A DNA stretch of 64,000 nt from Pseudomonas laurentiana. GTDB taxonomy: Bacteria; Pseudomonadota; Gammaproteobacteria; Pseudomonadales; Pseudomonadaceae. Under the pieces are notes generated by a model, which saw nothing but the letters and a program-made list of their open reading frames with translations, searched no databases and had not been told where the DNA came from. Position 1 is the first letter of the stretch. The number at the start of each line of letters is the position of its first letter. The position numbers and the translations under genes were made by a program. This document shows, one piece after another, positions 31,356 to 48,993 of this stretch. The DNA lies in NCBI RefSeq assembly GCF_014648275.1, contig NZ_BMQU01000004.1, forward strand, positions 124,001-188,000, read 5' to 3'.

Positions 31356-32117
31356 ATGAAGCAGGTTGCGTGGTGCGCGTTATTTACCCTGATCAGTGGC
31401 GTGGCGCTGGCTGCGACCGAAAGTGATCCGTTGCTCAATGACGCCACGTCCACTGCCAGCGAGGTCCGGGGCGTGCTGCGGGCTCGTTTCCAGGCCGTGT
31501 TGGCCAGCGAGCTAGCCGGCCGCGTCACCGACATCCCCTTCGCTGAAGGCCAGTCGTTCAGCAAGGGTGATGTACTTGTGCGCTTCGACTGCAGTGCCTA
31601 CCAGGCGCAGGCGAATGCCTCTGGTGCCGCGGTCCGCGCCGCCCGTGAAGAGTTGCGCAACAAGCAGCAACTGGCGGCGCTCAACTCGGTTGGCCGCTTT
31701 GAAGTGGCCTTGGCCGAGGCGCGCCAGGCCCAGGCCCAAGCCGAATCGCAGGTGTATCAGGTGCAGGTCCAGCGCTGCCAGGTGAAGGCGCCGTTCGATG
31801 GGCAGGTCGTGGTGCGCCGCGTCCAGGCCCACGAAAGCGTCGCTAGCGGTACGCCGCTGCTGGAAATCGTCGACAACCGCTCGCTGGAAATTCATCTGTT
31901 GGTGCCGTCGCGCTGGCTCGGCAAGCTCAAACCCGACCAGGCGTTCAGTTTTGTTCCCGATGAAACCGGTACGCCGATCAATGCGGTGGTCAAGCGTCTC
32001 GGTGCGCGGATCGACGAGGGCAGCCAGACGCTGCTGCTGATCGGCAGTGTCCCGGCGAATACCCAGGGCCTGCTGGCCGGTATGAGCGGCACGGCGCATT
32101 TCGCGGAGCCACAATGA
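31356..32117 (+). CDS. Small periplasmic adaptor (HlyD/RND membrane-fusion family)
   Basis: 253 residues. A cleavable signal peptide (to about residue 19, SGVALA) leads to an RND-like adaptor: a lipoyl half-motif FQAVLASELAGRVTDIPFAEGQSFSKGDVLVRFD, a short alpha hairpin rich in Ala/Gln (VALAEARQAQAQAESQ), the second half CQVKAPFDGQVVVRRVQAHESVASGTPLLEIVD and a beta-barrel. AAGGA lies nine bases before ATG 31356. The stop overlaps the next gene (ATGA). With no RND pump or ABC ATPase alongside, its partner is probably the next two HlyD-type proteins and the TolC protein at 45331. Confidence 0.85.
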   Translation: MKQVAWCALFTLISGVALAATESDPLLNDATSTASEVRGVLRARFQAVLASELAGRVTDIPFAEGQSFSKGDVLVRFDCSAYQAQANASGAAVRAAREELRNKQQLAALNSVGRFEVALAEARQAQAQAESQVYQVQVQRCQVKAPFDGQVVVRRVQAHESVASGTPLLEIVDNRSLEIHLLVPSRWLGKLKPDQAFSFVPDETGTPINAVVKRLGARIDEGSQTLLLIGSVPANTQGLLAGMSGTAHFAEPQ

Positions 32118-33433
32118 ACGCTCCCGTCCCCGGCGCTCTTGAACAACTGCTGGCGCATTACCTGAAGCTGGAGCGTCAGGCGCGGTCTGCCGCTTCCGTA
32201 GAGGTGTTGTCGTTCAGTATGGTCAACGACAGCCAGGCGCTGTTCGGCTTCCGTCATGCGGCCTTGCTGATTACGGGCAAGGTCCGTGCGCTCACCGGTA
32301 TCAGCGCGGTCGAGCCGAACGCCCCGTTCGTGGTGTTCATAGAGCGCATTGCCTCGCGCCTTGCCGCGGGTGAGCGCTTTGCCTTGCCCGGCGTTGTGCC
32401 TCCAGAAGACCTCGACCAGGCCAGCCGCGACGATTGGCAGGCACTGTCGGCGCCGCATGCCTTCTGGCTGCCGCTGAAAAACCGCGAGGGCGAGGTGTTC
32501 GGCGGTCTCTGGCTGGCCCGCGACACTCTCTGGAATGACGCCGAACAAGCCCTGCTGGCGCAGTTGGGCGATTGCTACAGCCACGCCTGGCGTGCTCTGC
32601 AACCGGGCAAACCGTGGCGCCTGCGCTGGCCGGCGCGGACACGCTGGGCCATTGCCGCTGCCGTGTTGCTGGTGCTCTTGGTGCCGGTACGCCAGTCGGT
32701 GCTGGCGCCGGCCGAAGTGGTGCCGCGTAATGGTCAGGTCGTGGCCGCGCCGCTGGATGGCGTGGTCGCCGAATTCCTCGTCAAGCCCAACCAGCCAGTG
32801 AAAACCGGGGACGTGCTGGTGCGCTTCGACGCCACCAGCCTCAAGGCCCAGGCCGATGTTGCCGAGCGCACCCTCGGGGTTGCCGAGGCCGAACTCAAGG
32901 CCAATACCCAGCGGGCGTTTTCCGATACCGATTCCAGTGCCCGGCTCGATCTGCTGGCCGCGCGCGTCGAACAAAAACGTGCAGAGCGTGATTACGCCCG
33001 TGAGCTGCTGGCGCGCAGCGAAGTCCGTGCCGAGCGCGACGGCCTCGCGGTATTCGCCGATGCCCAGCGCTGGGTCGGCAAGCCGGTGCGCACCGGCGAA
33101 CGCCTGCTTGAAATCGCCGACCCGGCCCAGGCCGAACTGCGTATCGAACTGCCGGTGGCCGACGCCATTGGCCTCGAACAGGGCGCCGAAGTGGCGCTGT
33201 TTCTCGACAGCGATCCGCTGAACCGCCACGGCGCAACCCTGGAACGTGCCGCCTACCAGGCCCAGAGCACAGCAGCTGGACAACTGGCCTACCGGCTCGA
33301 CGCAGCCTTCGATGCCGCGCCGCCCCGGATCGGCTTGCGCGGCACGGCCAAGGTCTTCGGTGACCGCGCACCGCTGGCGTTGTACGTGCTGCGCCGGCCG
33401 TTGGCGGCCCTGCGCCAGGCGGTGGGCCTGTGA
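32114..33433 (+). CDS. GAF-like domain fused to HlyD-type membrane adaptor
   Basis: 439 residues. The first ~170 form a soluble GAF-like domain (ALLITGKVRALTGISAVEPNAP, PHAFWLPLKNREGEVFGGLWLAR), predicted cytoplasmic. One TM helix follows at about 178-195 (AIAAAVLLVLLVPV), then a periplasmic HlyD part: lipoyl motif VVAAPLDGVVAEFLVKPNQPVKTGDVLVRFD, a coiled coil (QADVAERTLGVAEAELKAN and onward) and a beta-barrel. A sensory-type domain at the N-terminus of an adaptor suggests that export is gated by a cytoplasmic signal; this is inference. It overlaps both neighbours, so the three adaptor genes form one translational unit. Confidence 0.85.
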   Translation: MNAPVPGALEQLLAHYLKLERQARSAASVEVLSFSMVNDSQALFGFRHAALLITGKVRALTGISAVEPNAPFVVFIERIASRLAAGERFALPGVVPPEDLDQASRDDWQALSAPHAFWLPLKNREGEVFGGLWLARDTLWNDAEQALLAQLGDCYSHAWRALQPGKPWRLRWPARTRWAIAAAVLLVLLVPVRQSVLAPAEVVPRNGQVVAAPLDGVVAEFLVKPNQPVKTGDVLVRFDATSLKAQADVAERTLGVAEAELKANTQRAFSDTDSSARLDLLAARVEQKRAERDYARELLARSEVRAERDGLAVFADAQRWVGKPVRTGERLLEIADPAQAELRIELPVADAIGLEQGAEVALFLDSDPLNRHGATLERAAYQAQSTAAGQLAYRLDAAFDAAPPRIGLRGTAKVFGDRAPLALYVLRRPLAALRQAVGL

Positions 33434-35529
33434 TGCTGCCAGCACTGCGCGCCGACCTGCAGCTTTCGGCGGGTGCGCCGGGGCTCGACGGGGCACCGCA
33501 ATGGACCCTGGCCGACCCGTTGCGCGGCAAGTATTTCAAGCTCGGTGCGCCGGCCATGCGCCTGCTGCGCCACTGGGCGCAGGGCGATCCGCAACGGGTG
33601 CTGAACGCGGCCAATGCCGACCCGGGCATGCCGTTGACCGGACAAGACGTCGAAGAGCTGCTGCGATTCCTGCGGGGTCATGACCTGGTCAGCGCCGTGG
33701 ACGAGGAACAGCGCGCCAGCTATGCGCCCAAGGCCGCCGCTCAGCGCCAGGGCATCTGGACCCAGATCCTGCACAAGTACCTGTTTTTCCGCATTCCGCT
33801 GTGGCGTCCGGACGCATTCCTCAACCGCACCTGGCCCTGGCTGGAGCGCAACGGCCGCAACCTGCTGCGCTACGGCCTGCCCAGCGTGCTGCTGCTCGGT
33901 CTGTTCCTGGTGATGCGCGACTGGGCGCGCTTTCTTGCGACCTTCCCCCATCTGCTGAGCCTCGGCGGCATGGCGGCCTTCGCCATTGCCCTCGGCTTCG
34001 CCAAGCTCTGCCATGAGTTCGGCCATGCCTACATGGCCAAGCGCGCCGGCTGCCGGGTGCCGAGCATGGGCGTGGCCTTCATGGTCCTGCTGCCGATGCT
34101 CTATACGGATGTCAGCGACGCCTGGCGGGTGCAGGACCGGCGTACCCGCCTGCTGATCGGTGCCGGCGGCGTGCTCGCCGAGCTGATTCTGGCCTGCATC
34201 GCCCTGCTGGCCTGGTCGCTGTTGCCGGACGGGGCAGGGCGCACGGCGGCCTTCATGCTGGCCAGCGCGACCTGGATCACCACCCTGGCGATCAACGTCA
34301 ACCCGTTGATGCGCTTCGACGGCTACTTCCTGCTCAGCGACCTGTGGGGCGTGGATAACCTGCAAGGCCGTGGCTTCGCTCTGGGCCGCTGGCACCTGCG
34401 GGAGAAGCTGTTCGGTTATGGCGAGCCGATGCCCGAGCACTGGTCGCCGACGCTGCGCCGGCGCCTGCTGTGCTGGAGCTATGCCTCGTGGATCTGGCGC
34501 GCAGCGTTGTTCTTCGGTATCGCCCTGGCGGTGTATCACCTGTTCTTCAAGGTGCTCGGCATCTTCCTGATGCTGGTCGAACTGGTGTGGTTCATCGGCC
34601 TGCCGGTCTGGCGCGAATGGCAGCATTGGTGGCAGCACCGGGACAAGGCTCAGCCGCGCAAGGTGCTGTTCCTGGGCGCCGGCCTGGCGCTGTTGCTGGC
34701 CGTGCTGGTGCTGCCATGGCGTAGTGGTGTGGAAGTCCCGGCGATGCTCGAGGCCTCGCGTTTCAGTGCCCTGCATGCGCCGGCTGCGGCGCAGGTTCAC
34801 CAGGTGCTGGTCGCGGACGGCCAGCGGGTCGAGGCCAACCAGGTGCTGGTGACTCTGGCGTCACCTGACCTGGACGCACGCATGGCGATTTGCAGGCGCG
34901 AGATCGAGATTCTCCAATTGCAGTTGCGCCGCCAGTCCGGTCGCAGCGAAACCGCGGCCGACAGTGGCATCCTTGAGCAGCGCCTGGCTGAAGCCGTGGC
35001 CGAGTACCGTGGTCTGGCCGCGCAGCGTGAACGTCTGGTGCTGCGCGCGCCCCATGCGGGAACGGTGCGCGACCTGGCCAACAACCTGACTTCCGGGCGC
35101 TGGGTCAGTACAGAACTGCCGCTGGCGCAGGTCGCCGAGGGTGGCTTGCGGCTGCGCGGGTACCTGGCCGAGGCCGATCTGTGGCGGGTAGCGCCGGGTA
35201 CCGCCGGGCATTTCGTCGCCGACGATGTCTTGCGCGATTCCCTGCCGGTAACCCTGGATTCGGTGGACGCCAATGGCGTGGCCTACATCGATCAGGAGGC
35301 GCTGGTCTCGGACCATCACGGCCCTATTGCGATTCGGCGTGACGAAGAGAAGAGGGCGCAGCCATTGCAGGCGCAATATGGTGCCCAATTCGTGCTGGAA
35401 AACGGTGCACCCGAGCAACTTTCGCACCCTTTGCGTGGCCTCGTGGTGCTGGATGGAAAGCGCGAATCGCTCTTGTCCGCGGCATGGCGACGTATGGCGG
35501 CAATCGGTGTGAGAGAAAGTGGATTTTAG
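33433..35529 (+). CDS. M50 site-2-type metalloprotease fused to HlyD adaptor
   Basis: 698 residues. The N-terminal ~95 resemble a PqqD-like winged helix (LADPLRGKYFKLGAPAMRLL). An M50 membrane protease follows: HEFGH at 194-198 in a TM segment, and the second metal motif NPLMRFDGY with Asp296; both are intact. Several TM helices continue to about 435. The C-terminal third is an adaptor: lipoyl motif HAPAAAQVHQVLVADGQRVEANQVLVTLASPD, a short coiled coil and the return strand RLVLRAPHAGTVRDLA. ATG 33433 overlaps the previous stop (TGATG); GTG 33430 is possible. Site-2-type proteases cut within membranes; the giant protein encoded at 37241 is the obvious candidate client, by inference. Confidence 0.88.
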   Translation: MLPALRADLQLSAGAPGLDGAPQWTLADPLRGKYFKLGAPAMRLLRHWAQGDPQRVLNAANADPGMPLTGQDVEELLRFLRGHDLVSAVDEEQRASYAPKAAAQRQGIWTQILHKYLFFRIPLWRPDAFLNRTWPWLERNGRNLLRYGLPSVLLLGLFLVMRDWARFLATFPHLLSLGGMAAFAIALGFAKLCHEFGHAYMAKRAGCRVPSMGVAFMVLLPMLYTDVSDAWRVQDRRTRLLIGAGGVLAELILACIALLAWSLLPDGAGRTAAFMLASATWITTLAINVNPLMRFDGYFLLSDLWGVDNLQGRGFALGRWHLREKLFGYGEPMPEHWSPTLRRRLLCWSYASWIWRAALFFGIALAVYHLFFKVLGIFLMLVELVWFIGLPVWREWQHWWQHRDKAQPRKVLFLGAGLALLLAVLVLPWRSGVEVPAMLEASRFSALHAPAAAQVHQVLVADGQRVEANQVLVTLASPDLDARMAICRREIEILQLQLRRQSGRSETAADSGILEQRLAEAVAEYRGLAAQRERLVLRAPHAGTVRDLANNLTSGRWVSTELPLAQVAEGGLRLRGYLAEADLWRVAPGTAGHFVADDVLRDSLPVTLDSVDANGVAYIDQEALVSDHHGPIAIRRDEEKRAQPLQAQYGAQFVLENGAPEQLSHPLRGLVVLDGKRESLLSAAWRRMAAIGVRESGF

Positions 35530-35587
35530 TAGTGCGATGGTAGGGCAGATTGCGTTAATCTGCTGTCAATTAGCCATGCAAGGAAGC

Positions 35588-35613
35588 GTGACCCACGTCA
35601 CACTAACGGTTAG
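35588..35613. promoter_or_regulatory. Two adjacent palindromes upstream of the acetyltransferase gene
   Basis: GTGAC-CCAC-GTCAC (35588-35601) and CTAAC-G-GTTAG (35603-35613) lie side by side in the 131-base gap after the protease gene, 48 bases before the next start. Operator-like; the regulator is unknown. Confidence 0.4.
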
Positions 35614-35660
35614 TTCGCAACGTTTCTCGCCGCCGTATCCAGACAGGGAAGTCAGTATCG

Positions 35661-36158
35661 ATGCCGAAAGAAGCCGTGTCCCTCCGTGCCCTGCATTCAG
35701 ACGATATGGCGTTTATCGAGCGCCTTTATGCCGGTTCACGCGCCGAGGAGATGTCCCGCAGTGGCTGGCCCGCCGAGCACATCGCGTCTTTTCTCAGCCA
35801 GCAGTTCCATGCTCAGCATGCTTACTATCAAGCCCATTATTCCGATGGGGAATTATTGATCATCGAACTTGATGGGCAGGCTATCGGCCGTCTTTACCTG
35901 TTCTGGGGGCCGACCACCCTTAATCTGATCGATATAACCCTGCTTCCCGAATTCCAAGGTCAGGGCATTGGCTCCGCCTTGATCGAGGCGCAATTGCGCC
36001 GGGCCGATGAACAGGGCCTGCACGTGGAACTCTTCGTCGAATCCTATAACCCCGCACAGCGGCTGTATGGCCGACTGGGCTTTTATGTCTGCGGCGACTC
36101 CGGCGTTTATCTGAAACTGCGCCGCGACGCCCGCCTTGATTCCAGGAAAGTGTCATGA
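35661..36158 (+). CDS. GNAT-family N-acetyltransferase
   Basis: 165 residues. The acetyl-CoA site is clear: ITLLPEFQGQGIGSALIEAQL (motif A, Q/R-x-x-G-x-G) at about residues 95-115, preceded by GELLIIELDGQAIGRLYLFWG and followed by motif B YNPAQRLYGRLGFYVCG. The substrate is unknown; protein N-termini, amino acids or a small molecule are all possible. Its stop overlaps the next gene (ATGA). Position within the export locus suggests it modifies an exported or assembly component, but this is inference. Confidence 0.88.
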   Translation: MPKEAVSLRALHSDDMAFIERLYAGSRAEEMSRSGWPAEHIASFLSQQFHAQHAYYQAHYSDGELLIIELDGQAIGRLYLFWGPTTLNLIDITLLPEFQGQGIGSALIEAQLRRADEQGLHVELFVESYNPAQRLYGRLGFYVCGDSGVYLKLRRDARLDSRKVS

Positions 36159-36493
36159 GCGACCAGACCTTTGCCGCCATCCCCGGCCTGCAGGAATTGC
36201 GCGACGCCGATCCCGACGGTTTTGTGCTGCAACTCACCCCCGAGCAGGGCCTGAAGGTCAACCTGCTGCAGGTCCGCGAAGGCGTGGCGATGAACCAGGA
36301 CCACGAATGCTATTCGCTGTTGCTGGCATTGCCCCATGGGGTGAGCCTGCCGCAAGAGGTGTTCAACCTTTTCGGTCCGGGGCGCGAGCAGCCCTGGACA
36401 TTGCTGATGACGCCGATGGCACCCGAGCCGGATGGTCGTCATGTACTCGAAGCCGTTATCCATCGCCGTCGCGAGGCAGGCGATGCTCCCTGA
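36155..36493 (+). CDS. DUF6916-like small protein
   Basis: 112 residues, no signal peptide or TM segment. The pattern FVLQLTPEQGLKVNLLQVREG, then ECYSLLLALPHGVSLPQEVFNLFGPG and PWTLLMTPMAPEPDGRHVLEAVIHR, resembles a compact beta-rich protein that accompanies tail-collar genes and is now named DUF6916; the family label comes from memory. It starts inside the GNAT stop (ATGA) and precedes the tail-collar gene by 45 bases, so the three form one unit. Confidence 0.6.
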   Translation: MSDQTFAAIPGLQELRDADPDGFVLQLTPEQGLKVNLLQVREGVAMNQDHECYSLLLALPHGVSLPQEVFNLFGPGREQPWTLLMTPMAPEPDGRHVLEAVIHRRREAGDAP

Positions 36494-36538
36494 TTTGCCG
36501 AAATCCAAACCACGCTAGTCAACGTAAGGAAGAGTCTG

Positions 36539-37150
36539 ATGGCTGATCCGTTTTTGGGTGAAATCAGGATGGTGGGGTTCAACTTCAACCCCTATGGATG
36601 GGCAATGTGCCAGGGGCAGTTGCTGCCGCTGAGCCAGAACACTGCGCTGTTCGCGGTGCTGGGCACGACGTATGGCGGTGATGGTGTAAACACCTTTGCC
36701 TTGCCGGATTTCCGCAGCCGTATCCCGGTCGGTTTCGGCCAGGGCGCCGGTCTGCCGGCCTACGCCATGGGGCAGCAAGGCGGTGCGATCGCCATGACCG
36801 AGCTGGCCTCGACCCTGGCCCAGCATGCCCACACCGTCTCGCTGACGGTCAATGGCGCGGCGGCCCTTCAGGCCGTCAATGCTCCGGCCACCAGTTCGAC
36901 GCCGCTGGCCAACGGTTACCTGGCGATCCCGGACGACGGCCAGGGCGGTACCTTCAACCTGTACCACAGTGGTGTGCTACCCAATGGCCAGCCGGCTCCG
37001 AAGGTCAACCTGACGGCGCCAGCGGTGACCGCTGCCGGTACCGGGCAGACCTCCATCAGCGGCCAGAGCACCCCGTACTCGCTGCTCAACCCGTACCTGT
37101 CGGTCAACTTCATCATCGCGTTGCAGGGTATTTTCCCGAGCCGCAACTAA
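36539..37150 (+). CDS. Phage tail-collar domain protein (MdpB-like)
   Basis: 203 residues. The N-terminal tail-collar domain is complete: FLGEIRMVGFNFNPYGWAMCQGQLLPLSQNTALFAVLGTTYGGDG, then FALPDFRSRIPVGFGQG (residues about 5-70). The rest is low-complexity, Ala/Thr/Ser-rich, with HAHTVSLTVNGAA and a final LNPYLSVNFIIALQGIFPS that recurs in this family. No phage genes are nearby and there is no signal peptide. Such MdpB-like proteins occur in non-phage bacterial loci with GNAT and DUF6916 genes. GGAAGAG precedes the ATG. Self-trimerising fibre-like behaviour is plausible. Confidence 0.85.
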   Translation: MADPFLGEIRMVGFNFNPYGWAMCQGQLLPLSQNTALFAVLGTTYGGDGVNTFALPDFRSRIPVGFGQGAGLPAYAMGQQGGAIAMTELASTLAQHAHTVSLTVNGAAALQAVNAPATSSTPLANGYLAIPDDGQGGTFNLYHSGVLPNGQPAPKVNLTAPAVTAAGTGQTSISGQSTPYSLLNPYLSVNFIIALQGIFPSRN

Positions 37151-37161
37151 CGGCGACAACC

Positions 37162-37191
37162 GGCGGTGCCCCAGGGCACCGCCACTTTTTT
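37162..37191 (+). terminator. Rho-independent terminator after the tail-collar gene
   Basis: GGCGGTGCC/GGCACCGCC with CCAG loop (37162-37170/37175-37183), then ACTTTTTT. It stands 50 bases before the giant gene, so the GNAT unit ends here and the giant gene needs read-through or a separate promoter. Confidence 0.88.
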
Positions 37192-37240
37192 GTCCGCGGC
37201 GCCGGAGTTGGCGACGCGGTAGCACTCCAGGAGGTGCAGC

Positions 37241-40200
37241 ATGAAATTCATCGAACGCTTCTCGCGCAAACCTGTCCAGTCGCAGTCCATCGACGCCAGC
37301 CAGGCTCCGTTGTTGATGGCCCTGGAACCGCGGATCATGTTCGATGCGTCCGTGGGCGTAGTCGCCCAGGATGCCGCGGCCCAGACTACCGTCGACGCGG
37401 CCAAGGACAGCACCTCCAGCAACGAGGCCAGCCCGGCGCAGGCTGCGGCGGCCGATACCGGGCAGAGCGGGCAACGCCACGAAGTGGTGTTCGTCGACAG
37501 CCAGGTCAGCAATGCCGGGAAACTGCTTGAGGGGCTGCCGGCCAATACCGAAATCGTGGTCCTCGACCCGAACAAGGACGGCCTGCAGCAGATGGCCGAC
37601 TACCTCAAGGGCCGCGAGGGCCTGGACGCCATCCACCTGCTGTCCCACGGCGCGGACGGCACGGTGCAGATGGGCAATGTCTGGCTGGCCAGCAACAACC
37701 TCGCCGAGCACCGCGCTGCCCTGGAAAGCATCGGCGCCGCGCTCAAGGCCGACGGCGACCTGATGCTCTACGGCTGCGATGTGGGGCAGGGCGAGAAGGG
37801 GCAGGCGTTCCTCAATCAATTGGCGTCGATCACCGGTGCCGACGTTGCCGCCTCGGTGGATGATACCGGCGCTGCGGCGCTGGGCGGCAACTGGACCCTG
37901 GAGCGCAGCAGCGGCAGCATCGAGACCAGTGCGCTGAATCTCACCACCTACGACAGCCTGATGGCGGTTACCTTCACTGGCGGTCAGGAGCCCTCCTCGC
38001 CGGTCTTGGGCCCTACCGCCGCTTCCCTGATGCGCATGGTCGTGGGGGATTTCAACAACGACGGTCGCGACGACATCCTCTACCAGGACAACACCAACGT
38101 GTGGCGCTTCGCGGCGGGCCAGGCCGACGGTACCTTCCTTACGTTCCTGGCCGACCAGGCGGGTTCGCCGTTCTCCGGCATGAGCTTGCCGAGCGCGGCT
38201 ACCAATGGCGTCAACTACCATGCCGCCGACTTCGATGGTGACGGCGACACCGACCTGCTGGTCGCTGCCATCAGCGGACCGCAACTGACCCTGTTCCGCA
38301 ACAACAATGGCGTGTTCTCCCCCGAGGTCATCAGCGGTGGTCCGCTGTACGGCAACCGCACCATCGTCGGCGACTTCAATGGCGATGGCGCCGCCGACCT
38401 GCTGTACCAGACCACCAGCAGCCCCAACGCCCCTTGGCGGGTAATGATGAACGACGGCAACGGCAACATGACCGACATCGCCATCACCGATGCGAGTTCA
38501 CCATTCAGGAACGTCGCCCTGCCTGACTTCATCCTGTACCAGTACCGGATCGCCGACGTCGACGGCGATGGCGACGTGGACCTGATCCACCTGTACGCCA
38601 ACACTTCGATGACCTATTTCCGCAACGACAACGGGGTGTTCACCACCGGCAGCCTGGTCGGCATCAACAGCCCGCTGCCGCAGACCCGCTACGTGGTCGC
38701 CGACTTCGATGGCGACGGCGATGCCGATATCCTCTTCCAGTTCAGCGGCTTCCCCAACGACTGGCAGTTCTATCGCAACGACGGTACCGACGGCACTGGC
38801 AACCCGACCTTCACCCTGCTCGATAAAGAGGACGCGGATTCTCCGATCAAAGGGTTGAACATGGTCAACATGAGCAGCCAGAACTATCGCGTCGGCGACT
38901 TCGACGGCGATGGCGACCTGGACATGTTCGCCAGCTCGCTCAATGTCGCCGGCAGTGTCTACTGGCAGAGCGGCAGCTCGCCGAAACTGATCAGTGCCAC
39001 GCCGGCGGACGACACGCTGAACGTATCGCCGGGCGCCAACATCGTGCTGACCTTCGACCGCAGCGTCAACCCGGGTTCCGGCTCTATCCAGCTGGTGCGC
39101 CTCAGCGACGGCCAGGTCACCACCATCGCCGCTTCCAGCGTGGAAGTCAGCGGCTCCGGCACTACCTGGACCATCAATCCGGCGAGCAACCTCGACCAGG
39201 GCGCCGCCTATGCGGTGCGCATTTCGCCGAAGGCGTTCGTCTCCACCGATGGCAAGGCCTACGAGGGCATCGCTAACAACACCGCGCTTAATTTCAACAC
39301 GTCGAGCGTCCAGGCACCGGTGATCAGCAACCTCAACGGCGACAGCGTGACCTTCACCGAAGGCACCCCCGGTACACTGCTCGACGCTGGCAGCAATGCC
39401 AGTGTCACCGACGCCGACAGCCTCAACTTCAATGGTGGCAACGTCACCGTGACCATCAGCAACGGCCAGGCCAGCCAGGACGTGCTGTGGATCAATACCG
39501 ACGGTAATGGCGCCGGCAGCATCAGCACCAGTGGCAACGATGTCCTCTATGGCGGCGTAGTGATTGGAACCTACGCGGGTGGCACTCTGGGCAACCCTCT
39601 GGTGATCAGCCTCAACAGCGCCGCGACCCCGGCAGCGGTGAGCGGGCTGCTGCGCAACCTGTCCTACCGCAATACCGACCTCGATAACCCCAACACCGCG
39701 GCCCGCACCGTGCAGATCACCGTCAACGACGGCGCAGGCGGTACCAGCAGCGTGGCGTCTGTGCAGGTCAACGTCACCGCGGTCAACGATGCGCCGGTCG
39801 TCAGCGTCACCGGTAGTGCCCCGACCTACACGGAGGGCGGCTCCGCCGTGCTGCTGTTCAGTGGCGCCTCGGTCAATACCGTCGAACCCGGGCAGTCGAT
39901 CAACCAGATGGTCTTCTCCATCACCAACCTGAGCAACGGCAGCTTCGAGAAGCTGGTCATCGATGGCACAGACGTGACATTGACCGATGCCACCAACGTG
40001 ACCACCAGTGGGAATGGCACCACCGTTCAGGTATCGGTCAGCGGCAGCACCGCCACCGTCACCGTGACCCACGCCGGGATTAGCGCAGCCACCGCGCAGA
40101 GTATCCTCAACAGCATGGCCTACCGTAACGACAGCCAGGGGCCTTCCGGCTCGCCGCGCGTAGTGACCGTCGAGACCGTGCGCGACAGCGGCGGCACTGC

Positions 40201-43200
40201 CAACGGCGGGGTCGATGCCCGCACGGTCAGTGTTTCCAGCACCGTGACCCTGGTCGCGGTCAACGATGCGCCGACCCTCAGCGGCGGCCCCTATGTGATG
40301 ACCGGGATCAACGAAGACACCGCCACCAGCGGCCATCTGGTCAGCAGCGTGCTGGGCAACGTCAGCTACACCGACGTGGATCCGGGCGCGTTGGCCGGCA
40401 TCGCGGTGACCGCCACCTCCGGTCGCGGCACCTGGCAGTACTCCACCGACGGCAGCAACTGGACCGACTTCGGTACGGTGTCCAGCAGCAGTGCCTTGCT
40501 GCTGAGCGCCACCACCCAGGTGCGCTACATCCCCGATGGCGCCAATGGCGAGAGCGTCAACTTCACCTTCCGCGCGTGGGACCGCTCCACCGGCACCGCG
40601 TCTACCGCCGGCAGCCGTAGCCTGGGCGACACCACCACCAACGGTGGCAGCACCGCGTTTTCCACCGGCACCGCCCAGGCCACCTTGGTGGTGAGCTCGG
40701 TCAACGACGCACCGGTCATGACCCCGGTATCGCCGACCCTGTCGCCGCTGACCGATTCGTCCACCGCCAACTTCGGCGATCTGGTCGGTTCCCTAACCGG
40801 TGGCACCACCGATGTCGATACCGGTGCGGTCAAGGGCATCGCCATTACTGGCCTGACCTCCACCTATGGTACCTGGCAGTACAGCATCGACGCGGGTACC
40901 ACCTGGAACACTATCGGTACCGTCTCCAGCACCAGCGCGCTGATCCTGCGTCCGAGCGACAGGGTCCGCTTCGTCCCGGACGGCATCCATGGCGAAACCG
41001 CGACCATTACCTACAAGGCCTGGGATCAGACCGGCGGCACCGCCGGCCTCCAGGGCGTCAAGTTGAGCACCAGCGCGTCCGGTGGCACCTCGGCCTTCTC
41101 CACCGCGACCGACACCGCCAGCGTGGTGGTCACTGCGGTTAACGATGCACCGACCCTCAACGGCACGGGTGGCAACGTGGCCTGGACTGAGGGCAACAAC
41201 ACCACGTCGATCCCGGTGGTCATTGATAGCGGCCTGACCATTACCGATGCGGACGGCCCGGTCATCGCCTCTGCCACCGTGCGTGTCTCGGGCAACTACA
41301 GCAACGGCCAGGATTATCTGGAGCTCATTTCCAATCCGGCGACCATGGGTAATGTCACCGCGTCGTGGGACGCCACTACCGGCACCCTGACCCTGACCTC
41401 TGCTGGCAACCAGGCGAGCCTGGCGCAGTTCCAGGCGGCGCTGCGGGCGGTGACCTACACCAACCTGTCGGATGCGCCCTCGACCTCGACCCGCACCGTG
41501 CAATTCCAGGTCAACGACGGCAACCTGGACTCTTCGGGGTTCAGCCGTAACATCACCGTCACCGCCGTGGACGACTCGCCGGTGATCACTGCACCGGCGA
41601 ACACCGTGGTGGTCGAGGACGTCGCCTCGGTGATCAACCTGATCAGCATCAGCGACTCGGATTCCACCAGTGGCACCGTGACGCTGAGTGTCGGCTCCGG
41701 CAGCCTCGCGGCCACCAGTGCTGCTGGCGTGACCGTGGGCGGCACTTCCAGCGCGCTGACCCTGACGGGCACCCTGACCGCCATCAACAGCTTCATCGCC
41801 AGCAACCGGCTGACCTACACCACTGCGGCCAATGCCACGGCCGATGTCACGCTGACGATTGCAGTCGACACCGGCAGCATCAGTGCCGACACCAAGACCA
41901 TGACCCTCAGGGTCAACCCGGTGAACGATGCACCGGTGGTTACCGTACCGGGGAGCATCACCGTCACCGAGGATGTCGCCAGCGTGCTCAGTGGCATCAG
42001 CTTCAGCGATGTCGATGCCGGCAGCGCCAGCGTCACTGTGGGCTTTTCGGTCCCCAGCGGCACCTTGCTGGCTACCGATGGCGGTGGTGTCATCGTCACT
42101 GGCTCCGGCACCGGCGTACTGACGCTTTCCGGCGCCTTGGCCAATATCAACGTCTTCATCGCCGCCAGCAACCTGACCTACAAGACCGCCCAGGACGCCA
42201 CCGGCAGCGTGGCCCTGACGGTGAGCATCAACGACAACGGCAACACCGGCGGCGGCCCGCAAACCGACACCAAGACCGTGACCCTCAACGTCACGGCGGT
42301 GAACGATGCGCCGGTCAATAGTGTCCCCGCGTCGCAGACTGCGCAGCAGGGCATTCCGTTGGCCTTCAACGATGCCAATGGCAACGCCATCTCGATCAGC
42401 GACGTGGATGCCGGCAGCAGCCTCATGATCGTGACCCTAAGCTCGGTCAACGGCACCATGTCCCTGGGCAACACCAGCGGTGTGACCCTGGTGATCGGCA
42501 GCGGCACCGACAATACCGTTATTCGCCTCCAGGGCACCCAGGCCAATATCAATGCCGTGCTGCAAACCCTGACCTTCAAGTCGAATACCGGCTTCCTCGG
42601 CAACGCCAACCTGACCATTCAGAGCAACGACCTGGGCAATAGCGGCTCCGGCGGAGCCAAGAGTGATATCGACACCATCGCCATCAGCGTGATTCCGCTC
42701 AATCCCAAGGTCACCAGCGTTTCCGCACAGGGCCTGGACCGGACCGTGAAGATCGGTGACGAGGTCCTGGTCAACGTGGTCTTCGATCAGGCGGTCAACG
42801 TCGATCTCACGGGCGGTGTCCCGAGCCTGTTGCTGGAAACCGGGCTGATCGATCGCAACGCGGTCTACCAGAGCGGCTCGGGCAGCAACACCCTGGTCTT
42901 CAAGTACACCGTGCAGGCCGGTGACGTCAGCGCCGACCTGGACTTCCAGAGCACGGCGGCACTGCAGCTCAACGGCGCAGTATTGGCCAACGCCACCAGC
43001 GACCTGGCCATTTTGACCTTGCCAACCGTGGGCGGCGCGGACTCCCTCGGTGGTCGCAGCAATATCGTGGTCGATGCTGTGGTACCGGTGGTGGCGAGCG
43101 TCAGCGTGCCGTCGGACGGCACGTACATCACCGGGCAGAACCTCGATTTCACGGTCAATTTCAGCGAGAACATGGTGGTCGACACCACCGGTGGCGTGCC

Positions 43201-45334
43201 GCGCATCGCCGTGACCCTGGATACCGGTGGCACCGTCTACGCGGACTATGTGTCCGGCTCCGGCGGCAGTGCTCTGGTGTTCCGCCTGACCGCTGCCAGC
43301 GGCCAGCTGGACAGCAATGGCGTCACCCTGGGCGGTGCGATACAGCTCAACGGCGGCACGCTGCGCGACACCGCCGGCAATGACACCGTGGTCACCCTGA
43401 ACAACATCGCCAGCACCGCCAATGTCAATATCGACGGGGTGGCGCCGACCGTGGTCAGCGTCACCACGCCTGCCAATGGCAGCTACAAGGCCGGCGATGT
43501 GCTGACGTTCACCGTCAACGCCAGCGAAGCGCTGCAGACCGGCGCGCTGGCGCCCCGCCTGACGCTGGATGTGGGCGGCGTGACCCGCTACGCCACTTAT
43601 GTTTCCGGCAGCGGCAGTTCGGCGCTGGTGTTCCAGTACGTGGTGCAGGCCGGCGACAATGACAACAACGGCATCGCGGTCAATACCATCGATCTGCGCG
43701 GCGAGCCGCTCACTGACCTTGCCGGTAACAACATGAACCTGACGCTGAACAGCGTAGGCAGCACAGCGGGCGTGTTGGTGGATACAGTGGCACCGTCGCC
43801 CACCGGTATCGTTACTGTCGATCCTTCGCCGACCAATAGCGGTTCGGTCAGCTTCACCATCACCTTCGATGAAGATGTCAGCGGTGTGGACACCGGCGAT
43901 TTCGTGCTGGCTCTCAGCGGCACTGCCAACGGTACGATCACCAGCGCCACTCGCATCGACGGTCGTACCTGGACTGTCGTGGTGGGTAACCTGAGCGGTG
44001 TCGGCAACCTGGGGCTGAACCTCAATGGCAGCGGAACCGGCATCGTCGATGCCGCGAACAATTCGGTTACCGGCGGCCTGACCGGAGCGACGTACGCCAT
44101 CGACCGTGTGGCTCCGAGTGTCACCGGCGTCGATGTCCCGTCCAACGGCACCTATGTCGCCGGCCAGACCCTGGACTTCACCGTACGCACCGATGAAGCG
44201 GTGCTGGTGGACAACGGTAATGGTAACCCGCGCCTGGCCATCACCCTGGACAACGGACGCGTGGTCTACGCCGAATACCTGTCGGGTTCTGGCGGCAATG
44301 GCCTGGTGTTCCGCTTGAACGTCACCAGCGGTATGTCCGGTAACACCACCTTCGCCGTGGCGCAGTCCATCGACCTCAATGGCGGCAGCATCCGCGATGC
44401 CAGCGGCAACGACGCCAATGCCGGTCTGAACAACGTCGGTGACACCCGTGGAATCCTCGTCGATGCCAAGGCACCACGTCCTTCCAGCATCGTTGTCGAC
44501 GGCCCGGTACAACCGACCGACCGCACGCTGAACTTCACCTTGACCTTCGACGAGGCCGTCAGTGGTGTCGACCTGAACGACTTCAGCGTAATCAGTACCG
44601 GCAGTGCCAGCGGCACGGTGCAGTCGGTCCAGCAAATCGACGCCCAAACCTATCGCATCACCGTCGGCAGCATGAGTGGAGCGGGCACACTGGCCTTGAG
44701 CCTGAATGCGCTGAACAGCGGCATCCAAGACCAGGTCGGCAACGACCTTACGGTGTCGCTGGTTGGCCAGCCGCAGACGCTCCAGCCACAGACCGTCCAG
44801 TCGCAGGGTGCGGGTGATCTGAATTTTCGGCTCAACCCACCGGACACCCTCAACACGCCACAAACGGCGCTGGTGCAGCCTCAGGTGCCGGGCTTCGTGG
44901 CCACTGACGCGGTGTCGCCACTGGTCGCTCCAGGTTTGTTCGATGTCCGCACCGTGGGCGGCAGCCTGCAGCCGCTGGGCACCATCTTCCTCGGTAACGG
45001 CAGCAGCGCGCCGAGCTTCATCGCGCAGGTCTTCGGCAGCAGCGACGGCGGCATCGGCGGCAGCCAGGGCGGCTTTGGTGGCGGGGAGGGCAGCGTGTTC
45101 GGTAGCAGCACCTTCGCCGGCATCTTCAGTCGCGATGTACCGGGTGTCAGTGAGATGAACGTGTTCAACGGCAGCCAGTGGAAACAGAGCGACCTCAATC
45201 AGGGGCTGCGCGGCGTGTTCGGGGCACCGACCTTCGGCCAGCAACTGCATCAAATCAACGAAGCCGACCAGCGCCACGTGCGCGAGTTGGCCATGGCCCT
45301 GGCTCAGCCGACACAGATCGGGAAGCGGGCATGA
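37241..45334 (+). CDS. Giant LEPR-XLL/DUF4347 surface protein with FG-GAP and cadherin/Ig-like repeats
   Basis: 2697 residues. The start has a consensus AGGAGGT. No classical signal peptide is present; instead a LEPR-XLL motif, LEPRIMFDA, spans residues 28-36. DUF4347 occupies about 78-235, with IHLLSHG (His136-Gly137) and LMLYGCD (Gly178-Cys179), and Cys179 is the only cysteine I could find. Six FG-GAP calcium loops (DxDGDGDxDL type) lie near 270, 330, 377, 440, 488 and 553. A SbsA-type Ig domain spans 580-686, about seven cadherin-like VNDAP repeats 690-1815, and six Ig-like repeats 1817-2510. A Gly-rich tail ends it, without RTX nonapeptides. ATGA overlap with the TolC gene ties the two. 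Probable surface adhesin or secreted matrix protein; function is inferred. Confidence 0.9.
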   Translation: MKFIERFSRKPVQSQSIDASQAPLLMALEPRIMFDASVGVVAQDAAAQTTVDAAKDSTSSNEASPAQAAAADTGQSGQRHEVVFVDSQVSNAGKLLEGLPANTEIVVLDPNKDGLQQMADYLKGREGLDAIHLLSHGADGTVQMGNVWLASNNLAEHRAALESIGAALKADGDLMLYGCDVGQGEKGQAFLNQLASITGADVAASVDDTGAAALGGNWTLERSSGSIETSALNLTTYDSLMAVTFTGGQEPSSPVLGPTAASLMRMVVGDFNNDGRDDILYQDNTNVWRFAAGQADGTFLTFLADQAGSPFSGMSLPSAATNGVNYHAADFDGDGDTDLLVAAISGPQLTLFRNNNGVFSPEVISGGPLYGNRTIVGDFNGDGAADLLYQTTSSPNAPWRVMMNDGNGNMTDIAITDASSPFRNVALPDFILYQYRIADVDGDGDVDLIHLYANTSMTYFRNDNGVFTTGSLVGINSPLPQTRYVVADFDGDGDADILFQFSGFPNDWQFYRNDGTDGTGNPTFTLLDKEDADSPIKGLNMVNMSSQNYRVGDFDGDGDLDMFASSLNVAGSVYWQSGSSPKLISATPADDTLNVSPGANIVLTFDRSVNPGSGSIQLVRLSDGQVTTIAASSVEVSGSGTTWTINPASNLDQGAAYAVRISPKAFVSTDGKAYEGIANNTALNFNTSSVQAPVISNLNGDSVTFTEGTPGTLLDAGSNASVTDADSLNFNGGNVTVTISNGQASQDVLWINTDGNGAGSISTSGNDVLYGGVVIGTYAGGTLGNPLVISLNSAATPAAVSGLLRNLSYRNTDLDNPNTAARTVQITVNDGAGGTSSVASVQVNVTAVNDAPVVSVTGSAPTYTEGGSAVLLFSGASVNTVEPGQSINQMVFSITNLSNGSFEKLVIDGTDVTLTDATNVTTSGNGTTVQVSVSGSTATVTVTHAGISAATAQSILNSMAYRNDSQGPSGSPRVVTVETVRDSGGTANGGVDARTVSVSSTVTLVAVNDAPTLSGGPYVMTGINEDTATSGHLVSSVLGNVSYTDVDPGALAGIAVTATSGRGTWQYSTDGSNWTDFGTVSSSSALLLSATTQVRYIPDGANGESVNFTFRAWDRSTGTASTAGSRSLGDTTTNGGSTAFSTGTAQATLVVSSVNDAPVMTPVSPTLSPLTDSSTANFGDLVGSLTGGTTDVDTGAVKGIAITGLTSTYGTWQYSIDAGTTWNTIGTVSSTSALILRPSDRVRFVPDGIHGETATITYKAWDQTGGTAGLQGVKLSTSASGGTSAFSTATDTASVVVTAVNDAPTLNGTGGNVAWTEGNNTTSIPVVIDSGLTITDADGPVIASATVRVSGNYSNGQDYLELISNPATMGNVTASWDATTGTLTLTSAGNQASLAQFQAALRAVTYTNLSDAPSTSTRTVQFQVNDGNLDSSGFSRNITVTAVDDSPVITAPANTVVVEDVASVINLISISDSDSTSGTVTLSVGSGSLAATSAAGVTVGGTSSALTLTGTLTAINSFIASNRLTYTTAANATADVTLTIAVDTGSISADTKTMTLRVNPVNDAPVVTVPGSITVTEDVASVLSGISFSDVDAGSASVTVGFSVPSGTLLATDGGGVIVTGSGTGVLTLSGALANINVFIAASNLTYKTAQDATGSVALTVSINDNGNTGGGPQTDTKTVTLNVTAVNDAPVNSVPASQTAQQGIPLAFNDANGNAISISDVDAGSSLMIVTLSSVNGTMSLGNTSGVTLVIGSGTDNTVIRLQGTQANINAVLQTLTFKSNTGFLGNANLTIQSNDLGNSGSGGAKSDIDTIAISVIPLNPKVTSVSAQGLDRTVKIGDEVLVNVVFDQAVNVDLTGGVPSLLLETGLIDRNAVYQSGSGSNTLVFKYTVQAGDVSADLDFQSTAALQLNGAVLANATSDLAILTLPTVGGADSLGGRSNIVVDAVVPVVASVSVPSDGTYITGQNLDFTVNFSENMVVDTTGGVPRIAVTLDTGGTVYADYVSGSGGSALVFRLTAASGQLDSNGVTLGGAIQLNGGTLRDTAGNDTVVTLNNIASTANVNIDGVAPTVVSVTTPANGSYKAGDVLTFTVNASEALQTGALAPRLTLDVGGVTRYATYVSGSGSSALVFQYVVQAGDNDNNGIAVNTIDLRGEPLTDLAGNNMNLTLNSVGSTAGVLVDTVAPSPTGIVTVDPSPTNSGSVSFTITFDEDVSGVDTGDFVLALSGTANGTITSATRIDGRTWTVVVGNLSGVGNLGLNLNGSGTGIVDAANNSVTGGLTGATYAIDRVAPSVTGVDVPSNGTYVAGQTLDFTVRTDEAVLVDNGNGNPRLAITLDNGRVVYAEYLSGSGGNGLVFRLNVTSGMSGNTTFAVAQSIDLNGGSIRDASGNDANAGLNNVGDTRGILVDAKAPRPSSIVVDGPVQPTDRTLNFTLTFDEAVSGVDLNDFSVISTGSASGTVQSVQQIDAQTYRITVGSMSGAGTLALSLNALNSGIQDQVGNDLTVSLVGQPQTLQPQTVQSQGAGDLNFRLNPPDTLNTPQTALVQPQVPGFVATDAVSPLVAPGLFDVRTVGGSLQPLGTIFLGNGSSAPSFIAQVFGSSDGGIGGSQGGFGGGEGSVFGSSTFAGIFSRDVPGVSEMNVFNGSQWKQSDLNQGLRGVFGAPTFGQQLHQINEADQRHVRELAMALAQPTQIGKRA

Positions 45335-46860
45335 AGTACAGCACACACTTACAAAATAGAGCCGTACCAGGGGGCGGCCCAAGGATGAAGAAAAGCCAGA
45401 AACTGTTCGGTGCCAGCTTGCTGGCGCTGGCCATCAGCGGTTGCGCCGTGACCAGCCAGCCGATCGAGCGCAGCGCCAGCGAGGAACGTGCACGCACTGA
45501 CCTGGTGTCCATGTTCAAGGATCAGGAGCCGATCAACGGTCCGTTGACGTTGCACCAAGCCATGGCTCGGGCGGTGAAGTACAACCTTGAAGCCCGCCTG
45601 AAAGTGATGGAAGAAGCCCTGTCCAGGCGCCAGGTCGACCTGGCCCGCTTTGATATGCTTCCACGCATGGCCCTTGCGGCCGGTTATGCAGGCCGCAACA
45701 ACACCAGTGCGTCGAGCAGCCAGAGTGTCCAGACCGGTACCCAGTCGTTGGAACCCTCGACCTCTCAGGACCGTGACCGCGAAGTGGCGGACCTGACCAT
45801 GGTCTGGAACGTGCTCGACTTCGGTGTCAGCTACGTCAGCGCCAAACAGCAGGCCGACCAGCGCCTGATCCTCGAAGAGCGCCGGCGCAAAGTGATCCAC
45901 ACCATCACCCAGGACGTACGTTCAGCGTATTGGCGTGCGGTGGCGGCGCAGCGCCTGCTGACCCAGATCGACGGCCTGATGAGCCGCATCCACCAGGCCC
46001 GCGAAAACAGCCAGCATATGGCTGCCCAGCGCGTCGGTGATCCGGTGCAGACCCTGAGCTACCAGCGCGCCCTGATCGAAGCCACCCGTCAGCTGGAAGA
46101 GCAGCGCCGCGCACTGTCACTGGCCAAGACCGAGCTGGCGGCGCTGATCAACCTGCCGCTCAATACCCACTTCACCCTGGCGCCGGAAGAAGGCTACGTG
46201 GTGCCGCAGTTCAAAGGTGACCTGCAGACGCTCGAACAGCAGGCCCTGGCCAGCCGTCCGGAACTGCGCGAGCAGGACTACCAGGCGCGTATCAGCGCCG
46301 CGGAAACCCGCAAGGCCATGCTGCGCATGCTGCCGGGCCTGGAGTTCTCCGCTGGCGGTCATTACGACAGCAACTCCTTCCTGACCAACCAGAGCTGGGC
46401 CGACTACGGGGTGAAGATCACCTGGAACCTGTTCAACGTGCTCTCGGCACCGACGGCGATCAAGGTGGCCGAGGCCGGCCAGGATGTTGCCGCAGCCCGT
46501 CGCCAGGCGATGTCCATGGCGGTGCTGGCACAGTTGTACGTGGCCAACGCCAACTTCAACGAAGCCGTGCGTCAGTTCCATACCAGCGAAGAACTGGCCA
46601 GCCTCGATGGCCAGATCGCCGAACAGCTGCGCAACCGTTACCAGACGCAGAACATCGGGGAACTGGAGCTGATCCAGGGTGAACTGAACAACCTGCAGAC
46701 CCAGCTCAAGCGCGACCTGTCCTACGCCGAGCTGCGCAATGCCTACGCCCAGTTGTATGTCAGCTCAGGTAGCGACCCGCTGCCGGACACCCTGCCGGAC
46801 AACAACCTGCAGACCATCGCCACGGCACTGCAGAACAACGAGGCCAACTGGAATCGTTGA
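45331..46860 (+). CDS. TolC-family outer-membrane channel lipoprotein
   Basis: 509 residues from ATG 45331 (GGAAG five bases upstream, ATGA overlap with the giant gene). A second ATG at 45385 would give a more usual short signal sequence and 491 residues. The lipobox is LLALAISGC. Two repeated alpha-helical hairpin halves follow: TLHQAMARAVKYNLEARLKVMEE and onward, then RPELREQDYQARISAAETRKAMLRMLPGLEFSAGG, typical of outer-membrane efflux proteins. It should provide the outer-membrane duct for the three HlyD-type adaptors encoded at 31356-35529. Confidence 0.9.
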   Translation: MKYSTHLQNRAVPGGGPRMKKSQKLFGASLLALAISGCAVTSQPIERSASEERARTDLVSMFKDQEPINGPLTLHQAMARAVKYNLEARLKVMEEALSRRQVDLARFDMLPRMALAAGYAGRNNTSASSSQSVQTGTQSLEPSTSQDRDREVADLTMVWNVLDFGVSYVSAKQQADQRLILEERRRKVIHTITQDVRSAYWRAVAAQRLLTQIDGLMSRIHQARENSQHMAAQRVGDPVQTLSYQRALIEATRQLEEQRRALSLAKTELAALINLPLNTHFTLAPEEGYVVPQFKGDLQTLEQQALASRPELREQDYQARISAAETRKAMLRMLPGLEFSAGGHYDSNSFLTNQSWADYGVKITWNLFNVLSAPTAIKVAEAGQDVAAARRQAMSMAVLAQLYVANANFNEAVRQFHTSEELASLDGQIAEQLRNRYQTQNIGELELIQGELNNLQTQLKRDLSYAELRNAYAQLYVSSGSDPLPDTLPDNNLQTIATALQNNEANWNR

Positions 46861-47101: not shown

Positions 47102-48430
47102 ATGAAGCTTGGTCGGATGCAACGCGTTGTCCCTGTTCCCCTTGTGTGTGCAGTGCTGGCATGGATGATGCCGAGTGCCGCATTCAGCAGTCCGCCTGTC
47201 CCCGACGCACTGGAAAGTGACCCGGCCAGAATGGGCTGGATGGTCGGGTCGCCACCACCGCCCGAACGCATTATTCGCTTCGAGGATGGCAGTTACTTTC
47301 AGTATCCGCAGATGCGCTGGAGCGTCGCGCACTTCAGGGAGTTGATGCCGACGACTAACGTGTCGCGTGGCATAGGCGCACCCAACACGCTTGAGCGTGC
47401 GCTGCAGCCGGGTATTGATGAGGTGAGTTTTGTCCCGATGGGCGGCGACCGTCCGATGACCTGGCGCGATTCGTTGTTGGCGAACTACACCGATGGCATC
47501 GTCGTGCTGCACAAAGGGCGTGTCGTGTACGAGCGCTATTTCGGCGTATTGAAGCCAGAAGGGCAGCATGCGGGGATGTCGGTGACCAAGACGTTCATCG
47601 GCACGTTGGCGGCGATGATGGTGGCCGAGGGCACGCTTGATCCTGAACGCAAGGTGGTTGAGTACGTGCCGGAGCTGGGCAAATCGGCGTTTGGCAGTGC
47701 GACTGTGCGTCAGTTGATGGACATGACCACGGGCATACGCTTCAGCGAGAACTACGCCGATCCGAAGGCTGAAGTCTGGGCACATGCCGCCGCCGGTAGC
47801 CCTCTGCCTAAGCCTAAAGACTACACCGGCCCGCGTTCGTACTACGAATTCCTGCAAACCGTGCAGCCAGAAGGGGTTCACGGTGAGGCGTTTCATTACC
47901 GCACAGCCAATACCGACGCCTTGGGCTGGGTGTTGGCGCGGGTGAGTGGCAAAACCGTTGCGCAGCTACTCTCAGAGCGTATCTGGAGCAAGCTGGGGGC
48001 GGAGCAGGATGCCTACATGACGGTGGACTCTACCGGTACGCCGTTTGCGGGGGGTGGTCTCAATGCGGGGCTGCGTGATTTGGCCCGGTTCGGTGAAATG
48101 ATCCGCAACGAAGGGCAGTACAACGGGCAGCAGGTCGTACCCAAAGCGGCTGTCGACGACATTCGCCGCGGTGCCAGCAAGGAGGCCTTTGCCAAGGCCG
48201 GTTACACCACACTGACCGGCTGGAGCTACCACGACATGTGGTGGAACACCCATAACGAGCATGGTGCATTCATGGCCCGGGGTGTCTACGGTCAGGCGTT
48301 GTATGTCGACCCAACGGCCGAGGTGGTGATCGCACGGTTTGCCAGCCATCCCGTCGCCGCCAACACGGCCAACGATGCGACGTCGTTGCCGGCCTACCAT
48401 GCTGTGGCCAAGTACCTGATGAGCCGGTAG
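47102..48430 (+). CDS. Secreted serine hydrolase, beta-lactamase class C fold
   Basis: 442 residues with a signal peptide ending near SAAFS. The catalytic SxxK is SVTK at 160-163 and the second motif Tyr266 lies in FHYRTANTDALGWV. The third motif (KTG-like) is not in its normal form; the late GVYGQALYVDP stretch occupies that place. The pattern is closer to 6-aminohexanoate-dimer hydrolase (NylB) and esterase EstB types than to a true beta-lactamase. AAGGGAGTTGAGCT supplies the ribosome site. Substrate is unknown; no operon partner is apparent. Confidence 0.82.
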   Translation: MKLGRMQRVVPVPLVCAVLAWMMPSAAFSSPPVPDALESDPARMGWMVGSPPPPERIIRFEDGSYFQYPQMRWSVAHFRELMPTTNVSRGIGAPNTLERALQPGIDEVSFVPMGGDRPMTWRDSLLANYTDGIVVLHKGRVVYERYFGVLKPEGQHAGMSVTKTFIGTLAAMMVAEGTLDPERKVVEYVPELGKSAFGSATVRQLMDMTTGIRFSENYADPKAEVWAHAAAGSPLPKPKDYTGPRSYYEFLQTVQPEGVHGEAFHYRTANTDALGWVLARVSGKTVAQLLSERIWSKLGAEQDAYMTVDSTGTPFAGGGLNAGLRDLARFGEMIRNEGQYNGQQVVPKAAVDDIRRGASKEAFAKAGYTTLTGWSYHDMWWNTHNEHGAFMARGVYGQALYVDPTAEVVIARFASHPVAANTANDATSLPAYHAVAKYLMSR

Positions 48431-48528
48431 CGCCAGACCGCTATTCAATTGACGCTGCTCCATCTGTTGGGCAGTCTGGTGTCAGCGCCGTTGAATAATT
48501 CATAACACGTCGGAGCCCTATACCCCTC

Positions 48529-48951: not shown

Positions 48952-48993
48952 GTGTGGCGCGCCTGTCCAGGGTTCCGGCAGGCGCGCGGTAGC

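Follow-up and report, generated by a model that had tools for sequence, protein, structure and literature searches.

How a protein of 2697 residues leaves a Gram-negative cell, when the genes around it encode adaptors and an outer-membrane channel and no pump, is the question raised by a locus of Pseudomonas laurentiana at positions 31356 to 46860 of the window, by which we mean the whole stretch of 64,000 nucleotides analyzed here (contig NZ_BMQU01000004.1, positions 124,001 to 188,000). The locus contains genes for two adaptors (adA and gafB), a fusion of an M50 protease with a third adaptor (M50C), a giant repeat protein with an N-terminal LEPR motif, and a TolC-family channel. We consider it reasonably probable, judging from sequences, that these genes specify a leader-guided, Sec-assisted, ABC-free export machine dedicated to giant proteins. 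The observations behind this reading are the domain content of the proteins, the linkage and co-occurrence of their genes, a leader type that tracks the type of the system, and SecA genes beside the fusion gene of a sister type.

Organization of the export locus

The genes of the putative machine and its cargo are as follows.

31356..32117, + strand: adA, small adaptor of the HlyD/RND_mfp type (HlyD_3, 65 bits; TIGR01730, 126 bits, cut-off 94.9)
32114..33433, + strand: gafB, adaptor with an N-terminal GAF-type region (HlyD_3, 55.7 bits)
33430..35529, + strand: M50C, a single protein that unites an RRE/PqqD-like domain, an M50 intramembrane protease and an adaptor (Pfam; AlphaFold2 model)
37241..45334, + strand: giant cargo of 2697 amino acids with FG-GAP, Ig-like and cadherin-like repeats (Pfam scan)
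45331..46860, + strand: TolC-family outer-membrane channel (OEP, 138 bits)

HlyD_3 exceeded its Pfam cut-off in all three adaptors, and the N-terminus of AdA resembles a Sec signal peptide by sequence. adA and gafB overlap by ATGA, gafB and M50C by GTGA (an alternative in-frame ATG start of M50C lies at 33433), and the start of the TolC gene overlaps the stop of the giant gene by ATGA. A preliminary description of this DNA had named these five genes, their overlapping stops and starts, and the size of the giant, all of which were borne out by the sequence and Pfam. It had also called the genes consecutive, which holds for the three overlapping adaptor genes; however, three small genes (GNAT-like, DUF6916 and collar) separate M50C from the giant gene. 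Its statements that the locus lacks ATP-binding cassette (ABC) and resistance-nodulation-division (RND) transporters and that the giant lacks RTX repeats agree with our Pfam scans: the locus genes scanned gave no match to an ABC or RND family, and no RTX family, including PF00353, matched the giant at E ≤ 0.1. Two of its labels stood in part. No GAF family matched GafB of the window at E ≤ 0.1, but PF01590 (GAF) matched 8 of the 17 GafB homologues scanned. The LEPR model NF012209 reached 19.6 bits on the giant in a six-frame search, over the cut-off of 17, but 13.7 bits on the protein.

M50C combines a protease, an adaptor and a PqqD-like domain

33430..33699, + strand: RRE/PqqD-like N-terminal domain of M50C, residues ~1-90 (sequence profiles; order of strands and helices)
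34012..34026, + strand: HExxH zinc site of M50C, residues 195-199 (HE..H in 61/61 relatives)
34717..35526, + strand: adaptor half of M50C, residues ~430-699 (Foldseek matches MacA, ZneB and MexA; HlyD_3)

Peptidase_M50 matched M50C with 34.7 bits (cut-off 27.2), and HlyD_3 matched its adaptor half with 33 bits. The AlphaFold2 model of M50C, built with 60 relatives (mean pLDDT 90.5, pTM 0.74), has long helices between residues 128 and 427 and the adaptor from residue ~430. In the M50C alignment (A2), H195, E196 and H199 were invariant, as were D297 and Y299 of the second M50 motif, in which G298 was nearly invariant. M50C thus has the HExxH motif in a membrane helix region and the second DG motif that define site-2 proteases. 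A dead M50 domain retained as a mere scaffold was rejected, since HE..H was intact in all 61 relatives. In a locus of Candidatus Symbiopectobacterium (L178), the fusion was split into two open reading frames (ORFs), and the locus is a decaying one.

By sequence and model, M50C is the sole many-helix membrane protein of the locus set, and hence it would occupy the position usually taken by the pump.

When the N-terminal profile of M50C was compared with PDB sequences, TbiB1 (E 0.0039), PqqD (0.018) and TfuB1 (0.039) were the top three of eight matches up to E 10, and PF05402 matched 8 of 30 M50C relatives (best E 5e-10). In the model, strands 11-14, 25-29 and 34-38 are followed by helices 40-47, 54-63 and 71-83. 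The M50C N-terminus therefore combines a PqqD-like profile with the three-strand/three-helix order of RRE domains. Foldseek with the whole M50C model gave adaptors only among the best 50 matches, so that the RRE assignment rests on the sequence profiles together with this order.

The giant cargo carries a leader, a caspase-like domain and a C-terminal motif

37322..37351, + strand: LEPR leader motif LEPRIMFDAS, residues 28-37 of the giant (NF012209)
37484..37942, + strand: DUF4347 domain with a fold like that of caspases and a conserved His/Cys pair (186 bits; structure model, pLDDT 96.7; Foldseek)
45230..45247, + strand: C-terminal TFGQQL motif of the giant (pattern count over C-tails)

A polar stretch and a LEPR-type motif form the beginning of complete giants, and a motif of the same kind was found in other loci of the window's type (type I loci). 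The longest open frame with a LEPR leader had 19,427 codons (G205:C115:112865-112924), and several others exceeded 10,000 codons. DUF4347, of which the genome of the window has one, gave eight PDB matches at E ≤ 1e-3 with Foldseek (query TM 0.61 for Tce1 and 0.36-0.42 for caspase-3 and legumain chains). H57 and C100, which we take to be the catalytic positions as in caspases, were kept in at least 90% of the 28 rows of its alignment (A3). The fold and the His/Cys pair place DUF4347 with the caspase-like (clan CD) proteins. Of 73 C-tails, some of which are near-copies and others possibly frame errors, 45 had the pattern [SGPAT][FL]xx[QE][LMI] within their final 45 residues. Inner windows contained it in 15 of 1500 cases and control tails in 3 of 60; four of the 45 motif-bearing proteins are not giants (L152, L155, L157 and L162; 811-844 amino acids, 0.6-1.1% Cys).

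Proteins with these domains have been described elsewhere. PA0256, a putative type VI secretion system toxin, is reported to carry an uncharacterised DUF4347 (PMC8262886). A Vibrio protein of ~8000 amino acids with a LEPR-XLL domain has been described in a passage that names no exporter (PMC10868602).

Beside the giant of one locus lies a second, short (626 amino acids) LEPR/DUF4347 protein (L034:5153-7033), in whose domain the SHG and YGC residues normally present have been lost. In two SAR11 (Pelagibacteraceae) loci (L203, L206), adA, gafB and M50C stand next to a large ORF with the C-terminal motif in its tail.

The fusion, the giant and the leader occur together

Among 148 genomes of the family, 65 contained the fusion and 56 contained DUF4347, and all 56 of the latter held the fusion. 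Of the 65 genomes with the fusion, 56 thus had DUF4347, as against none of the 83 without it (Fisher p 1e-31; this and the following Fisher test take no account of relatedness among genomes). Across 398 genomes of the phylum, leader and fusion were both present in 70, the leader only in 14, the fusion only in 21, and neither in 293 (Fisher p 2e-44). At a leader threshold of E ≤ 1e-3, the fusion was found in 39 of 40 genomes, the exception (G352) being an 86% complete genome, and at E ≤ 1e-4 in 33 of 33. The phylum screen for the fusion scored two candidates per genome, so that its copy numbers are lower bounds and fusions of the sister type (type II) were missed in it.

Linkage was also conserved. 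For the 127 type I loci whose fusion is intact (128 less the split L178), many of them cut by contig or fetch ends, the counts were 122 for gafB, 106 for a giant, 104 for adA and 76 for TolC. In the 75 loci flanked on each side by 8 kb or more, they were 74, 71, 69 and 48, respectively; the giants counted include any ORF of at least 900 amino acids with <0.3% Cys. Gene order varied, the giant being 3' of M50C, 5' of TolC or divergent, and one locus (L152) had a differing neighbourhood. Among the matches listed, the nearest named relatives of the fusion were those of Stutzerimonas stutzeri and Pseudomonas ovata (85% identity), and further relatives came from many Pseudomonadota as well as from Nitrospira, Desulfonema and SAR11 records (80 of at least 568 relatives retained).

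The leader type appeared to follow the system type in these sequences. With a pattern that allows D or S only at the scored place, filtered by composition and with near-copies counted, the residue was D in 75 ORFs of type I loci and extension pieces (a group that takes in L228, with no fusion in view) and S in 7 of 8 ORFs of type II loci; four S-type ORFs (L232-L235), taken up below, had been assigned to type I by default.

These patterns bear on whether the module exports a small peptide, in the manner of a bacteriocin or of a ribosomally synthesized and post-translationally modified peptide (RiPP), with the giant as a mere neighbour. The RRE-like domain of M50C would suit such a role, as would the match of the daptide protease model NF041824 to its residues 32-391, although at 138 bits this is below the cut-off of 300. 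Against it stand the nesting of DUF4347 with the fusion, the co-occurrence of leader and fusion, and the S-type leaders that led to the sister loci described below, and we consider a small-peptide exporter very improbable.

ABC transporters in the loci and genomes

The sole match to an ABC-exporter model within the window lies at ~14745-15356, 16 kb upstream of the locus, where PF00005 also matched. Of the 127 type I loci, one (L196) has an ABC label within the cluster; it stands for a 235-amino-acid ATPase ~5 kb past the fusion, adjoining another adaptor and TolC, and probably belongs to a neighbouring pump. In another locus (L147), the region upstream of the module encodes a pump of the major facilitator superfamily (MFS), an outer-membrane channel, and an ABC ATPase together with a permease of the binding-protein type.

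The giant might nevertheless be moved by an unlinked ABC exporter of a type I secretion system (T1SS), for example of the LapB type, to which the locus would contribute adaptors, processing and the outer channel. The genome of the window has one T1SS-type ABC over the model cut-off (LapB-type), with an HlyD neighbour, on another contig. The LssB-type ABC model matched 114 of 148 family genomes at E ≤ 1e-100 (87 of them over the cut-off), including 61 of 65 fusion genomes; five control genomes, E. coli among them, also have ABC proteins that attain this level, all of them below the cut-off. However, four fusion genomes (G015, G019, G031 and G064) had no match at this level, and three of them (G015, G019 and G064) have DUF4347. 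NCBIfam was searched with 10 of the 16 ABC_membrane proteins of these three genomes, and no T1SS cut-off was attained. Five more fusion genomes had only matches of 1e-100 to 1e-116. The existence of genomes with the fusion and DUF4347 and without a T1SS-type ABC at E ≤ 1e-100 counts against an unlinked ABC in the strain of the window, as does the lack of an RTX family on its giant, and we regard such an exporter as distinctly improbable. A plain T1SS with an overlooked pump gene was rejected, because all but one of the 127 clusters are without an ABC label and the same three genomes are without a T1SS-type ABC at this threshold. Together with the nested co-occurrence and conserved linkage, these genomes support the dedicated ABC-free route suggested in the preliminary description.

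A sister type encodes its own SecA

Low-scoring relatives of the fusion formed a separate group (14 rows versus 46; branch support 100/100), and type I and type II fusions aligned with an hhalign probability of 100 over 687 columns. SecA was labelled in 11 of 14 loci of this sister clade, and genome G308 (L114) additionally has a SecA beside the fusion, whereas SecA was near the fusion in 0 of 127 type I loci. Ten of the eleven sister-type SecA proteins scanned had the motor and preprotein domains, and that of L115 gave a match below the cut-off. The maps of the sister loci showed no second SecY, for which no model search was made. Nine outer-membrane proteins of the sister type were scanned, of which six were TolC-type and three ShlB-type with POTRA domains (L236, L237 and L244); the outer pore therefore looks exchangeable. 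One cargo piece of the sister type (L107) matched the RTX family PF00353.

Among the 148 family genomes, a second SecA was found only in G003, G033 and G106, and it is these three genomes that have a type II fusion (E 1e-42 to 9e-41); G056, with a weaker fusion match (1e-14), has one SecA. If leader type follows system type, genomes with strong S-type leaders that show only type I fusions should also hold the sister type. A second SecA was present in 26 of 33 genomes with a leader at E ≤ 1e-4 compared with 3 of 16 others, these 49 genomes having been picked after the leader scores were seen. We fetched 27 loci of second SecA genes (25 from the 49 genomes, plus those of G033 and G106), and a type II fusion adjoined in 26. 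In L243 the contig ends at the second SecA, and in L256, L258 and L262 the SecA or the fusion is in pieces.

The preliminary description had the M50 fusion take the place of an energised pump. The position agrees, but the SecA next to the sister fusion makes a Sec motor the more likely source of energy, and reading and cutting of the leader the likelier task of the protease. Alternatively, M50C and the adaptors may form the whole inner-membrane translocase, and the window's type would then work with neither SecA nor another ATPase, driven by the proton motive force or by folding outside. This would account for a module without an ATPase gene, for type I loci without SecA and all but free of ABC labels, and for a genome with one SecA. 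Because the sister clade, homologous over the whole fusion, has an adjoining SecA, a Sec-type motor is indicated for the family, and we consider a motor-free translocase unlikely.

Several observations weigh against a leader-guided, Sec-assisted machine. The genome of the window holds one SecA and its type has no motor of its own, so that the use of SecA in this type is an extrapolation. Two sister-clade loci (L113 and L117) show no SecA, 7 of the 33 selected strong-leader genomes had no second SecA at E ≤ 1e-20, and the wing/scaffold domain, present in the housekeeping SecA of the window's genome, was found in 0 of 11 accessory SecA proteins. The leader of the giant falls short of a usual Sec signal in hydrophobicity (1.43 versus 2.26 for AdA as the best mean over 12 residues), and PF05402 did not match the window's own M50C. 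The correspondence between genes is also imperfect: nine fusion genomes of the family are without DUF4347, the 14 leader-only and 21 fusion-only genomes stand at the thresholds used, and four S-type leader ORFs (L232-L235) came from genomes also holding type I fusions, in which sister loci were subsequently found.

Proposed export route

In the machine that we favour, the RRE-like domain of M50C would bind the N-terminal LEPR leader of the giant, and SecA would push the chain across the inner membrane at M50C. The sister type would use its locus-encoded minimal SecA for this, and the window's type the housekeeping SecA, perhaps with SecYEG. The Sec step is seen as gene content in the sister type only and is extended to the window's type because the whole fusion is homologous to the sister fusion. 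The HExxH site of M50C may cut the leader, while the adaptor half of M50C, GafB and AdA would maintain the passage towards TolC, and by this channel the repeat protein would leave, presumably for the cell surface. The caspase-like DUF4347 domain may later cut the giant.

Type I secretion systems such as HlyBD-TolC and LapBCE likewise combine HlyD-type adaptors, a TolC channel and giant repeat cargo. The present locus differs in having no ABC transporter, a cargo without an RTX family but with a conserved N-terminal leader, and an RRE-M50-adaptor fusion in place of the pump. With tripartite efflux pumps (AcrAB, MacAB and EmrAB with TolC), it shares the adaptor fold of M50C, which matches MacA, ZneB and MexA; however, it has no RND, ABC or MFS pump, and a protein cargo gene adjoins. 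The PqqD-like domain and the sub-cut-off daptide M50 match recall RRE-containing RiPP systems (PqqD, lasso B1 proteins and the daptide protease), whereas here the domain is fused to an adaptor and the associated leader belongs to a protein thousands of residues long. The accessory Sec systems are those of SecA2. The sister type resembles them in its second SecA, but this minimal SecA is without wing/scaffold and stands beside the M50 fusion and adaptors, and the window's type has no second SecA. The three sister loci with a ShlB-type pore and POTRA domains resemble two-partner secretion, while the window (OEP, no ShlB) and most loci scanned use a TolC-type channel, and the inner-membrane part is the M50 fusion.

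Accessory and neighbouring genes

35661..36158, + strand: GNAT-like protein, accessory cassette (NCBIfam rimI, 35.5 bits, below the cut-off of 86.4)
36155..36493, + strand: DUF6916 protein, accessory cassette (PF21880, 28.7 bits, cut-off 27)
36539..37150, + strand: collar-domain protein, accessory cassette (PF07484, 92 bits)

In Pseudomonas and Stutzerimonas, this cassette, whose content varies, frequently adjoins the module (L034, L037, L040, L041 and L138-L163), and the GNAT-like gene was seen again in the loci of relatives. The collar protein of L078 has an N-terminus resembling a Sec signal. At 47102-50253, 3' of TolC, are genes for a beta-lactamase-family protein, a MarR regulator and, on the opposite strand, an OprD-type porin.

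Significance

We think the balance tips slightly towards a new class of two-membrane secretion, with an RRE-guided protease-adaptor, a LEPR leader, a Sec motor and an exchangeable pore (TolC or ShlB), which would export some of the largest bacterial proteins. No account of such a system was found in the literature searched, which did not cover preprints and included few subscription papers. If this reading is true, the LEPR motif, so far the name of a family without a stated function, would be an export leader, and a leader-binding domain familiar from RiPP peptides would serve protein secretion. Gram-negative bacteria would then have a dedicated SecA pathway for giant proteins, and the exit of giant RTX-free proteins becomes directly testable by gene deletions.

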